From Qipengyuania qiaonensis (GTDB taxonomy: Bacteria; Pseudomonadota; Alphaproteobacteria; Sphingomonadales; Sphingomonadaceae): a DNA stretch of 64,000 nt. Shown here piece by piece: positions 55,520 to 59,421 of the stretch; position 1 is the first letter of the stretch; each line of letters starts with the position of its first letter. The position numbers and the translations under genes were made by a program. The stretch lies in the NCBI RefSeq assembly GCF_019711515.1, contig NZ_JAIGNO010000002.1, forward strand, positions 248,001-312,000. Reading direction: 5' to 3'. Under the pieces are notes generated by a model. That model was given only the letters and a program-made list of their open reading frames with translations. It did no database searches and had not been told where the DNA came from.

Positions 55520-57181
55520 ATGATCGCAACCGAACCGCCCGCCGCCGCCCGTACGCCTGCACTCGATCGCCGTACCCTGCTTAAGGGAGGCTTGCTCGGA
55601 CTGGGCGCCGCAGGCGCGCCGTTGGCAGCGCAGGACCCGGCAGCCGGCTTCACGCATGGCGTCGCGAGTGGCGAGCCCGGGTCGGGGCGGGTGCTGGTGT
55701 GGACGCGCTATGTCGGCAACGGGGATACCTCGCTCGAATTCGAACTGAGCGAATCGCCCGACTTCGCGCGTGCGGCTTCGGGCGGTCAGGTCACCGCCAG
55801 CGCGGATAACGACTGGTGCTGCAAGGCTTGGGCCGAAGGGCTCCAACCCGGGCATTGGTATTATTTCCGTTTCACCGCACCCGATGGCTCGCAATCCGAT
55901 GTCGGGCGGACCAAGACGCTGCCGGACGGCCCGACCGAGAAGTTTCGCATGGCGGTCTTCTCATGCTCGAATCTCGGCTTCGGCTGGTTCAACGCCTATG
56001 CCCATGCTGCGGTCGACGGCAATTTCGACTGCGCGCTGCATCTGGGCGACTATTTCTACGAATACGGGCCGGGTACCTATCCGTCGAGCGACGAGGCCCA
56101 GCCTGGCCGTACACTGTTTCCGGCGAGCGAGGTCGTTAGCCTCGCCGACTATCGGCTGCGCTATGCCACCTATCGCCGCGATCCGGATCTGCGCCGCCTG
56201 CACCAACTCTATCCGATGATCGCGGGTTGGGACGACCACGAAAGTGCCAACGACTCGTGGAAGGACGGTGCGCAGAACCATCAGCCGGAGACCGAAGGCG
56301 AGTGGTCCGTGCGCAAGGCGACGGCGGTCAAGGCCTATCGCGAATGGATGCCGGTATCGGACGAGCCCTGGGCCGCTTACGAGGTCGGCAATCTGGCAAC
56401 GCTGTTCAGGCTCGAGACCCGGCTGACGGCGCGCGCCGAACAGTTTTCCTATGGCAGCATCCTTGCGGGCAAGACCTCTCCAGACGATGCGATGGCCGCG
56501 CTGATCGCCTTTCGCGAAGGCGCGTATCGCGATCCCGGGCGCGAGATGCTCGGCATGCAGCAGCAGGCATGGCTGGCCGATGGGCTCAAACGGTCGGCCG
56601 GTGCGGGCAAGCCGTGGCAGGTACTGGTCCAGCAGGTGCTGATGGGAAATCTCGCCACGGCACCCGTTCTTGCCGAAGGACTGCCGGCAGACCTGCCGGA
56701 CTATGTGCGCCAACGGATCCTGGCGGGCACGATGGCCGGCCGCGCCGAACTGCCGCTCAACATGGACGCGTGGGACGGCTATCCGGCGGCGCGCGATCGC
56801 CTGTTCGAATCGGCGCTCGAGGCCGATGCGAATATCGTCAGCCTGGCGGGCGATACGCACAATGCCTGGGCTTTCGATCTGGATCGGGCGGGCGCCAAGG
56901 TGGGCGTGGAATTCGGGGTGCAGGGCGTCACTTCGCCAGGCCTCGAAAGCTATGCGTCCTATCTCCCGACATCCGATCTCGAACGCGCCACCATTGCCCA
57001 TAACCGGCAGCTCAAATGGATGGACGGTTCCCGCCGCGGTTACATGGCGGTCGAACTCACGCCGGGGAGCGCTTCGTGCGAATTCCGGTTCCTTTCGAGT
57101 GTGCGCGAGAAGGGGGCAGGCGTCACTGCGACCAAGCGCGTCACGACCTTGGCGGGAAGCCGGATGCTCGACGTGGGTTGA
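55520..57181 (+). CDS. phoD: Alkaline phosphatase D (PhoD), Tat-exported
   Basis: A 553-residue phosphatase/phosphodiesterase. The Tat signal (DRRTLLKGGLLGLG) is followed by the N-terminal beta domain FTHGVASGEPGSGRVLVWTRY and the metallophosphoesterase domain: ALHLGDYFYEYG, GWDDHESANDSW and LAGDTHNAW carry metal ligands. It hydrolyses phosphate esters outside the cytoplasm. The ATG at 55520 has AAGGAG. thrS with its leader follows, but separate transcription is expected. Confidence 0.93.
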   Translation: MIATEPPAAARTPALDRRTLLKGGLLGLGAAGAPLAAQDPAAGFTHGVASGEPGSGRVLVWTRYVGNGDTSLEFELSESPDFARAASGGQVTASADNDWCCKAWAEGLQPGHWYYFRFTAPDGSQSDVGRTKTLPDGPTEKFRMAVFSCSNLGFGWFNAYAHAAVDGNFDCALHLGDYFYEYGPGTYPSSDEAQPGRTLFPASEVVSLADYRLRYATYRRDPDLRRLHQLYPMIAGWDDHESANDSWKDGAQNHQPETEGEWSVRKATAVKAYREWMPVSDEPWAAYEVGNLATLFRLETRLTARAEQFSYGSILAGKTSPDDAMAALIAFREGAYRDPGREMLGMQQQAWLADGLKRSAGAGKPWQVLVQQVLMGNLATAPVLAEGLPADLPDYVRQRILAGTMAGRAELPLNMDAWDGYPAARDRLFESALEADANIVSLAGDTHNAWAFDLDRAGAKVGVEFGVQGVTSPGLESYASYLPTSDLERATIAHNRQLKWMDGSRRGYMAVELTPGSASCEFRFLSSVREKGAGVTATKRVTTLAGSRMLDVG

Positions 57182-57213
57182 GAATTGGGCGCGCCGGGGT
57201 TATCTCGACCGAC

Positions 57214-57285
57214 ATGACGCATCTGCGGATCACGACCACGACTACCACTACCCCGGGCGTCCGGGGGCGGTCGGTCGCGGCTTGA
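57214..57285 (+). CDS. Threonine leader peptide for thrS attenuation
   Basis: A 23-residue open frame reading MTHLRI, then seven consecutive threonine codons (ACG ACC ACG ACT ACC ACT ACC), then PGVRGRSVAA and a stop. It ends 127 bases before the thrS start and is followed 6 bases later by a GC-rich hairpin with a short T-run. This is the layout of a transcription-attenuation leader peptide: low charged tRNA-Thr stalls the ribosome on the threonine run and prevents the terminator. The peptide is visible; its regulatory use is inferred from the pattern. Confidence 0.8.
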   Translation: MTHLRITTTTTTTPGVRGRSVAA

Positions 57286-57290
57286 GCGAT

Positions 57291-57326
57291 CCACCGCCGC
57301 CCGGTTTCGGGCGGTGGGCGTTTCCT
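57291..57326 (+). terminator. Attenuator hairpin between the leader peptide and thrS
   Basis: CCGCCCG (57297-57303) pairs with CGGGCGG (57308-57314) across a GTTT loop, with additional CCACC/GGTGG pairing possible outside, followed by GCGTTTCCT. With the threonine leader immediately before it, this is the candidate terminator of a thrS attenuator. The T-tract is short. Confidence 0.55.
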
Positions 57327-57411
57327 CCCGAAATCGCAAGTTTCTCGCAAACGCCGCTTCAAGGCCGCGCGCGCCTGTGCCATGGGCGCGACAATTGATA
57401 CGGATGAGACG

Positions 57412-59421
57412 ATGACGGAACTGCTCAAGATCAGCCTGCCCGACGGTTCGGTGCGCGAAATGGAAGCCGGGTCCACGCCCGCCGACGTGGCGGCGGCAAT
57501 CGGCCCCGGTCTCGCCAAGGCGGCGATCGCCGCACGCGTCGATGGCGAGCTGCGCGATATCAACCGCCCCTTCGATGGCGATGCCGAGCTGGCCCTGGTC
57601 ACCTCGCGCGACGAACAGGACGCGCTCGAACTGGCTCGTCACGATTTCGCGCATGTCCTGGCCGAAGCGGTGCAGGCGCTGTGGCCCGGTACGCAGATCA
57701 CTTTCGGCCCGGCGACCGATGACGGCTTCTATTACGACGTGAAGGCGCCCGAAAGCCGCGACCCGTTCAGCATGGACGATCTTCCCGCGATCGAGGAAAA
57801 AATGCGCGAGATCATCCGCGCGGACAAGCCGCTCCGACGCGAAGTCTGGAGCCGCCAGCAGCTGATCGACAAGTGGGAAGCCGAGGGCGAGGTCTTCAAG
57901 GCGGAATGGGCGCGCGAATTGCCCGAAAACGAGGAACTGACCGTCTACTGGTCGGGTGGCGACTGGCTCGACATGTGCCGCGGGCCGCATCTCGCCAGCA
58001 CGGGCAAGCTCGACCCGCAGGCCTTCAAGCTGACGCGCGTGGCGGGTGCCTATTGGCGCGGCGATCAGAACAATCCGCAGCTGACGCGCATCTACGGCAC
58101 GGGCTGGCTCAACAAGAAGCAGCTCGACGCGCATCTGATGCGGCTGGAAGAGGCGGCGAAGCGCGACCATCGCAAGCTGGGCCGCGAGATGGACCTGTTC
58201 CACCTGCAGGAAGAGGCGCATGGCAGCGTTTTCTGGCACCCGAATGGCTATCGCATCTGGCGCGAACTCGAAGCCTATATGCGCCGCAAGATGGACGGCG
58301 CGGGCTATCGCGAGATCAAGACGCCGCAGCTGATGGATGTGCGCCAGTGGGAACAGTCCGGGCACTGGGGCAAATATGCCGAGAACATGTTCGCCGTGCC
58401 CGACATGGTACCCGAAGTGGACGATAGCGGTGCTGGCGCGGAGCCGAAGGTGGCGGCGGACGCCGACTGGATGGCCATCAAGCCGATGAATTGCCCGGCG
58501 CATGTGCTCGTCTTCAAGCAGGGCATCACCTCCTATCGCGACCTGCCGATCCGGCTGGGCGAAATGGGCTGCTGCCACCGCAACGAACCGCATGGCGCGC
58601 TCCACGGGCTGATGCGCGTGCGCCAGTTCACGCAGGACGACGCGCATATCTTCTGCACCGAGAAGCAGGTGGTCGAGGAAGTACGCGCATTCTGCAAGCT
58701 CGCCGAGGGCGTCTACAAGGATTTCGGGTTCGACTTCGCGATCAAGCTGGCGCTGCGCCCCGAAAAGCGGCTCGGCTCCGACGCCGATTGGGACAAGGCC
58801 GAACAGGAACTGCGTGACGCCGTCGAAGAAGCCGGCATGATGAGCGATGAGTTCGGCTGGGAAGAACTGCCGGGCGAAGGCGCCTTTTACGCGCCGAAGC
58901 TCGAATGGCACCTCACCGATGCCATCGGCCGCACCTGGCAGGTCGGCACGATCCAGGGCGACCGCGTGCTGCCCGATCGTCTCGATGCGAATTATATTGG
59001 CGAGGATGGCGAAAAACACCGTCCGGTCATGCTGCACCGCGCGATCTTCGGCAGTTACGAGCGCTTCATCGGCATCCTGATAGAGCATTTCGCCGGCCGC
59101 CTGCCGACGTGGCTGGCCCCGGTGCAGGCGGTGGTGGCAACGATCACCTCCGATGCGGACGGCTATGCCACGGATGTGTTTGATCAACTAGCGGCGGCCG
59201 GTATCCGCGTCGAAAGCGACCTGCGCAACGAGAAGATCAACTACAAGGTCCGCGAGCACTCACTCGCCAAGGTCCCGCACCTGCTGGTTGTCGGCAATCG
59301 CGAAGCGGAGGAAGGTACCGTTGCCGTCCGCACGCTCGGCCAGCAGCACCAGAAGGTGATGCCGCTCGCTGAGGCTATAGCGATGCTGAAGGACGAGGCG
59401 ACCCCGCCCGACCTGCGCTAA
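57412..59421 (+). CDS. thrS: Threonyl-tRNA synthetase
   Basis: A 669-residue class II synthetase. It has the N-terminal TGS domain ([17 protein letters not shown]), the editing/SAD region ([20 protein letters not shown] with the HxxxH motif), the catalytic core ([18 protein letters not shown] motif 1 region, motif 2 [29 protein letters not shown]) and the anticodon-binding C-terminus. I start it at the ATG at 57412 rather than 57382, which has no ribosome binding site. It charges tRNA-Thr and is preceded by a threonine-rich leader. Confidence 0.97.

Follow-up and report, generated by a model that had tools for sequence, protein, structure and literature searches.

In this study, we examined a 64-kb window (the whole stretch of 64,000 nucleotides that was analysed) from Qipengyuania qiaonensis, and describe upstream of thrS, the gene for threonyl-tRNA synthetase, a threonine-rich leader peptide followed by a chain of alternating RNA pairings. 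Comparison among relatives and in silico folding lead us to propose, with a probability of about 0.78, that this element is a ribosome-mediated transcription attenuator by which thrS would respond to charged tRNA-Thr. Transcription would start at the leader AUG, and ribosomes would load as on a leaderless message. When threonyl-tRNA is scarce, a ribosome would stall on the threonine codons and segment 2 of the RNA would pair with segment 3; segment 4 would then be free for 5 and segment 6 for 7, hairpin 3:4 would be blocked, and the polymerase would continue into thrS. When threonyl-tRNA is plentiful, the ribosome would reach the stop codon and cover segment 2, upon which 3:4 and 5a:6 would form and transcription would stop before thrS. 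A translation-sensing attenuator had been suspected in a preliminary description of this DNA, and the reading is now supported by threonine conservation, by the alternating pairings and by folding as a function of ribosome position. What this marine bacterium carries is thus very probably a known kind of control, of which the unexpected parts are thrS as the target gene and the unusual length of the switch.

The leader peptide and its putative promoter

The target gene lies at 57412..59421 on the forward strand, as do all features below; it is present in the open reading frame list and was identified by TIGR00418 (630.8 bits, cut-off 383.65). The gene upstream is phoD-like (219 bits, under the 1000-bit cut-off). 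An alternative thrS start at 57382 was dropped, as its frame, read by eye, is not kept in relatives. Between the two genes lies a leader frame of 23 codons (57214..57285; MTHLRITTTTTTTPGVRGRSVAA), found in the open reading frame list and in homologues, which starts with ATG at 57214 and stops with TGA at 57283-57285. Its putative sensor is a run of seven consecutive threonine codons at 57232..57252; the frame, the run and the stop had all been described correctly beforehand. The window contains the pattern (ACN)7 a single time, and none of 100 dinucleotide shuffles contains it. The whole 3.39-Mb genome holds two copies, against one of the reversed pattern used as a control, and the second of the two lies on the strand opposite a long coding frame, which looks GGDEF-like when read without a family search.

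The preliminary description had named conservation of the threonine codons among relatives as a test, and they are conserved. Threonine occupies four aligned columns in 73, 72, 74 and 71 of 74 distinct leader coding sequences, and the third codon base is variable in the first three of these columns. Because threonine is kept while the third base varies, selection acts on the peptide as threonine and not on a nucleotide repeat. Typical forms, as a summary of the homologues, are MTHxRITTTTTTTPGxRGRxVAA and MAKLLTTTRTTTTRTTIRGRRRAG.

Upstream of the leader we find a -35-like TTGAGA (57178..57183), which overlaps the phoD stop codon, and a -10-like TATCTC (57201..57206), separated by a spacer of 17 nt. 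A strict consensus promoter scan reported no promoter at the leader, so the case for one rests on conservation of position. Among 74 distinct promoters, TTG stands at -36 from the leader ATG in 42% (0-8% at the other 19 offsets), and TA[T/A/G] stands at either -13 (62%) or -12 (26%), 88% together. With this geometry, transcription would begin on the leader ATG or right beside it, so that the leader mRNA is probably leaderless.

Distribution among relatives

We compared two sets of thrS loci, both biased to close kin: the best 30 loci, own locus included, from a genus set of 61 searched genomes (own plus 60 relatives), and the 80 most similar of 588 relatives in a named genome collection, giving 110 loci when combined. 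A strict scan found a threonine-rich frame near thrS in 79 of the 110 on the forward strand and in none on the reverse. A loose leader scan returned 82 of 110, from which L030 and L092 were removed as false; the working set of 78 leaders (75 distinct, as some loci are identical across sets) further omits L016, which is degenerate, and L075, both of which match the leader covariance model. In L075, a metagenome bin, the peptide is retained and segments 3-7 are missing. The leader stands directly before thrS in 28 of the 30 genus-set loci and in 52 of the 80 named loci, and in three further named loci it lies farther upstream, before an inserted gene. Counting against our explanation, the element is absent within the fetched flank in 25 of the 80 named loci, and absent in two genus-set loci (L030 and L031).

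The phoD-like gene ends at most 323 nt from thrS in 28 of the 30 genus-set loci. Among the 52 named loci whose leader adjoins thrS, 31 show no phoD-like match in the 1.5 kb fetched. By this comparison, the element appears to travel with thrS, also away from the phoD-like gene. In L030, L085 and L103, which are without the leader, phoD ends just 31-67 nt before thrS.

Of 246 genomes sampled from the order, 75 matched a covariance model of 43 leaders that was applied with strict filters, seven of these matches being weak (best E 0.0003 to 0.0044). All 75 belong to the family group of the window (f1), and they cover 22 of 71 genera; thrS lies downstream in 30 of 30 best-scoring hits, which are those that were fetched. 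When presence is mapped on a tree of the thrS proteins from the 80 named loci, made by a quick method with no bootstrap, it requires 13 changes against 21.5 with shuffled labels, a pattern that fits an old element lost several times; gains may also have occurred. Outside f1, a threonine-rich frame near thrS was found in 3 of 87 loci (L163, L167 and L194; none on the reverse strand), that of L194 being doubtful. In L167, from another alphaproteobacterial family, the threonine leader MFKRPTIETTATTTLLEGP precedes thrS together with a hairpin and a run of six T, the classical form with a U-tract terminator. It is probable that L163 and L167 carry separate threonine leaders before thrS in other alphaproteobacterial families.

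Alternating RNA pairings

Folded singly, the whole window leader is only slightly better than its shuffles (z -1.85). As this is not decisive, the case for an attenuator rests on comparison and not on one fold. From 56 non-redundant leaders, three were kept out of the alignment, named A2: L078, and L014 and L027 with their insertion of about 100 nt. Among the 53 leaders for A2, L096 was untrimmed, and 43 remain after nine were dropped whose trim register was wrong by eye (L022, L037, L042, L065, L066, L077, L087, L093 and L097). An earlier alignment, A1, misplaced segment 6 between subtypes and was replaced by A2, made on trimmed leaders.

The core of hairpin 1:2 (57251..57266; 57251-57256 with 57261-57266) overlaps the last threonine codon, and is paired in 93.8% of cells for the outer three pairs and 77.5% for the inner three. 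Segment 2 (57261..57271) is the candidate antiterminator partner of segment 3 (57293..57304), to which it is complementary in 90.1% of cells over the 43 leaders, against 38-63% when slid. Thus the antiterminator fold for which the preliminary description had asked exists in 2:3, and is kept among relatives. This pairing varies little (14 double-change cells versus 9.3), which counts against our explanation, and its support in the alignment is kept complementarity more than covariation. The predicted OFF hairpin 3:4 occupies 57294..57317 (57294-57303 with 57308-57317); its 6-pair core is paired in 97.3% of cells and shows GC to AU exchange in 12 sequences. It ends 94 bases 5' of the thrS ATG at 57412, in agreement with the GC-rich hairpin, followed some 95 bases on by thrS, that had been noted before.

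Segment 4, as used in 4:5, spans 57303..57311, and its C-rich partner when 2 holds 3, segment 5, spans 57327..57335; over the 43 leaders 4:5 is paired in 91.2% of cells with 20 double-change cells. Segment 5a (GGCGTTT, 57317..57323) pairs with segment 6 (AAACGCC, 57349..57355) in 92.3% of cells, with 41 double-change cells. Taken jointly, 1:2, 3:4 and 5a:6 reach 91.1% paired cells and 57 double-change cells (22 in shuffles), and 4:5 together with 5a:6 reaches 91.7% and 61 (21 in shuffles); sliding the partners by 1-3 columns lowers both joint structures to at most 61.2%. As judged from the alignment, 3:4, 4:5 and 5a:6 covary. The order of 4:5 and 5a:6 is that of an H-type pseudoknot, and the two might form jointly. 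For the stretch that begins at segment 6 and runs into thrS, RNAalifold returned no consensus structure.

A swap test that uses no column pairing set each segment with its own partner against partners from leaders less than 75% identical. For all six neighbour pairings (1:2, 2:3, 3:4, 4:5, 5a:6 and 6:7) the own partner beats the swaps on average, with p of 4e-8 for 4:5, 1.5e-6 for 5a:6, 0.0016 for 2:3 and 0.014 to 0.018 for 1:2, 3:4 and 6:7 (0.014 for 6:7), values that serve as a ranking only, since eleven pairings were compared and the rows share ancestry. In the five non-neighbour pairings the own partner is no better than a swapped one (p 0.23 to 0.83). For the median leader, swaps equal the own partner in 19-25% of cases for 4:5 and 5a:6 and in 37-44% for the other pairings; the effect is small for 1:2, 3:4 and 6:7, which counts against our explanation, and segment 7 (57356..57376) is placed by this small effect as the weaker partner of segment 6. 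Taken together, the own-partner results indicate that segment 3 can pair with 2 or 4, segment 4 with 3 or 5, and segment 6 with 5a or 7. In four loci (L014, L027, L029 and L044), segments 5 and 6 are set apart by an inserted palindrome of about 100 nt, which by eye leaves 5a and 6 in place; the insert has the look of a small palindrome that is mobile or repeated.

Ribosome position and the choice of structure

Each computed fold began at the downstream edge of a hypothetical ribosome and ran to one of several transcript ends. For the window transcript reaching segment 5, edges at nt 40-49 give a probability of 3:4, P(3:4), of 0.00-0.01, with 2:3 at 0.59-0.93 and 4:5 at 0.46-1.0, and edges at 55-82, or no ribosome, give a P(3:4) of 1.0. 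Over the 43 leaders, P(3:4) for the same transcript averages 0.05-0.09 when the edge lies between -8 and +1 relative to segment 2; the mean climbs to 0.63 at +7 and to 0.80-0.86 from +10 onward, and shuffling segment 2 brings it back to 0.67-0.68. Transcripts reaching segment 6 give means of 0.14-0.18 versus 0.84-0.89 in these leaders.

Four results count against this picture. Transcripts reaching only segment 4 show a weaker contrast (mean P(3:4) of 0.28-0.57 versus 0.91-0.92); window edges at nt 22-37, as for a stall on the first threonine codons, give 0.22-0.67; the mean with no ribosome is only 0.52 over the 43 leaders, versus 1.0 in the window; and for the window transcript that reaches thrS (198 nt) equilibrium favours 3:4 at most stall positions. 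From the last of these it follows that the switch must be kinetic, and would be decided as the polymerase passes through segments 5 and 6. In silico, the position of the ribosome on the threonine codons is predicted to decide which structure forms.

Termination and the level of control

We infer that the OFF step is termination. The terminator hairpin plus U-tract of a classical attenuator was not found: no U-tract follows 3:4 in any of the 43 aligned leaders, the 8 nt after stem 4 hold 2.0 T on average, and the longest T run in the 14 nt after it is 1-3 in 43 of 43. In the window itself, the short T-run previously reported comes to no more than GUUUCC after the stem. A terminator scan of 57000-57500 found no terminator-like site, and in the final 20 kb of the window the same scan counted 13 against 14.5 in shuffles, hence no excess. 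The ilvB-like, trpE-like and homoserine dehydrogenase genes of this genome have no cognate leader in the stretch scanned, and therefore offer no internal yardstick for U-tracts; the 20-kb scan offers none either. Just before the ilvB start of this genome (L231), or overlapping it, a promoter-like pair TTGACC and TATCTG stands ahead of an inverted repeat that is strong and GC-rich, with no obvious branched-chain leader peptide.

The stretch of 42 nt that starts 33 nt past the leader stop has a median C/G ratio of 1.88, and the ratio is at least 2 in 47% of leaders versus 3% of background windows from the 64 kb, as measured on the 72 of 78 leaders that are without long insertions. Such a C-rich, G-poor composition after 3:4 fits that of a Rho-type rut site, and lends weight to the earlier suspicion of Rho dependence. 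The OFF fold would leave segment 5 in a loop, and the ON fold would have segments 5 and 7 paired, an arrangement that would suit loading of Rho in the OFF state. Given the missing U-tract at 3:4 and the C-rich stretch that comes next, factor-assisted termination, most likely by Rho, seems somewhat more probable to us than simple intrinsic termination. The rival for this last step, which overlaps our explanation in keeping the same sensor, would make 3:4 an intrinsic terminator that tolerates a poor U-tract and needs no Rho. The strong 3:4 stem with its near-complete core pairing and the GUUU that lies a few bases past it, in the window and in many genus relatives, speak for it, and the T counts and C/G ratios above speak against it; we consider it possible and on balance doubtful. 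Tentatively, and at well under even odds, we would go beyond factor-assisted termination and suggest a new class of attenuator: a chain of about 150 nt, triggered by stalling at threonine, would alternate between 2:3, 4:5, 6:7 and 1:2, 3:4, 5a:6, with 4:5 and 5a:6 as a possible H-type pseudoknot, and would hide a C-rich Rho loading site in the ON fold and expose it in the OFF fold, so that the peptide would control the access of Rho and not an intrinsic terminator.

The level at which the leader acts was weighed against loci in which it is far from thrS. In L041 (Aurantiacibacter), L046 (Citromicrobium) and L090 (Alteriqipengyuania) the element is followed by an exonuclease-like gene and then by thrS, which starts 557-589 nt past the end of the element. 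The inserted gene lies at L041:955-1458 and L090:924-1427 (168 codons in both) and at the corresponding position in L046; RNase AS is matched weakly by the L041 protein (25.6 bits, cut-off 200), and Pfam gave no match for the L041 and L090 proteins. Apparently, the exonuclease-like gene has been put under the same control as thrS. By eye, segments 5a and 6 in these three loci are of new yet complementary sequence. L139 likewise has about 570 nt between the element and thrS.

Because the element lies so far from thrS in L041, L046 and L090, it would act on transcription and not on the thrS ribosome-binding site, unless thrS has a promoter of its own; such loci may have an internal thrS promoter, which counts against the argument. 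Control of thrS translation by the leader, with the alternating hairpins relaying the signal to the thrS start region, is in our view unlikely: the chain does extend to segment 7, 36-56 nt before the thrS start, with a further hairpin at about -40, but the RNAalifold run gave no conserved pairing with the start region, and the three loci have another gene in between with 5a:6 kept. That thrS-proximal hairpin (57370..57390, loop GUGCCAU) bears on another possibility, namely that threonyl-tRNA synthetase binds its own leader there, the loop often containing UGU, and that the peptide is secondary. Its loop motif, a pattern drawn by eye with the variants UGUG[C/G/U]CA or UUG[C/U]C[C/U]UAA, occurs in 53 of 63 loci with the leader versus 4 of 25 without it, and UGUG[C/G/U]CA stands near -37 in many leader-bearing loci. 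However, a Porphyrobacter-type clade has the loop UUGCC[C/U]UAA, without GU, and the conservation of the threonine codons would be left unexplained, which makes synthetase binding more improbable still than translational control. That the threonine run is a functionless chance or simple-sequence ACN run would agree with the unremarkable single-sequence fold, but is hardly credible in view of the conservation, the synonymous variation, the covariation, the dependence on ribosome position and the empty reverse strand in all 110 loci.

Relation to known systems

Leader-peptide attenuators are classically known from the thr, his, trp, leu and ilv operons and from pheST of E. coli. The thrS element shares with them a short open reading frame with cognate codons, the alternatives 1:2, 2:3 and 3:4, and ribosome position as the deciding factor, and differs in having thrS as target, no U-tract, and the extra alternatives 4:5, 5a:6 and 6:7. 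We would class it as a variant of the leader-peptide attenuator, to be set apart from the classical intrinsic-terminator kind because the U-tract is missing. In Firmicutes, thrS is usually controlled by a T-box riboswitch, which like the leader here senses tRNA charging, and no T-box match was found here at gathering score or at E 10. Rfam 15, whose families presumably include the threonine operon leader and the T-box, matched only a tRNA in a gathering scan of the window, and in an E 10 scan of 57100-57500 gave only an irrelevant sub-threshold match. In E. coli, threonyl-tRNA synthetase binds the leader of its own thrS, the operator being a mimic of the anticodon arm before the start codon; of such an operator we find here only the loop motif near thrS, which is not uniform among loci. 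Lopatovskaya 2010 is said, by its title, to concern synthetase operons.

The preliminary remark that it is not standard for a threonine leader to stand directly upstream of a synthetase gene has to be qualified, as the published accounts, as far as the parts concerned go, include two relevant cases. The cysteine leader uORFC-8-2 before cysS in Rhodobacterales likewise places an alphaproteobacterial synthetase gene behind a cognate-codon leader; it differs in having two cysteine codons and, in all cases, a U run fitting an intrinsic terminator, and the relevant portion of the account describes no extended pairing chain (PMC8632094). In Streptomyces lividans, thrL, known from RNA-seq, is a leaderless threonine leader before thrS for which, in the section concerned, no U-rich sequence was found; it differs in its length of 18 aa with two threonines and in belonging to Actinobacteria, and comparative structure is not given in that section (PMC8079986). 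The trpL attenuator rnTrpL/peTrpL of Sinorhizobium meliloti is, according to the passages concerned, also a leaderless leader-peptide attenuator of an alphaproteobacterium, and differs in sensing tryptophan, in targeting trpE, and in being a dual-function sRNA with a functional peptide (PMC10117765). A small CDS before trpS is mentioned in part of a report on Caulobacter (PMC4117421). In the part of the literature searched, we found no report of the element in Sphingomonadales, and an earlier prediction is possible.

Conclusion

If the proposed attenuator is real, threonyl-tRNA synthetase would join the leader-peptide-controlled genes of Alphaproteobacteria. The relatives of Q. qiaonensis, with their insertions, deletions and operon rearrangements, would form a natural set for the study of attenuation that lacks a U-tract in GC-rich bacteria, and a multi-step alternating RNA switch that gates Rho would become directly testable.
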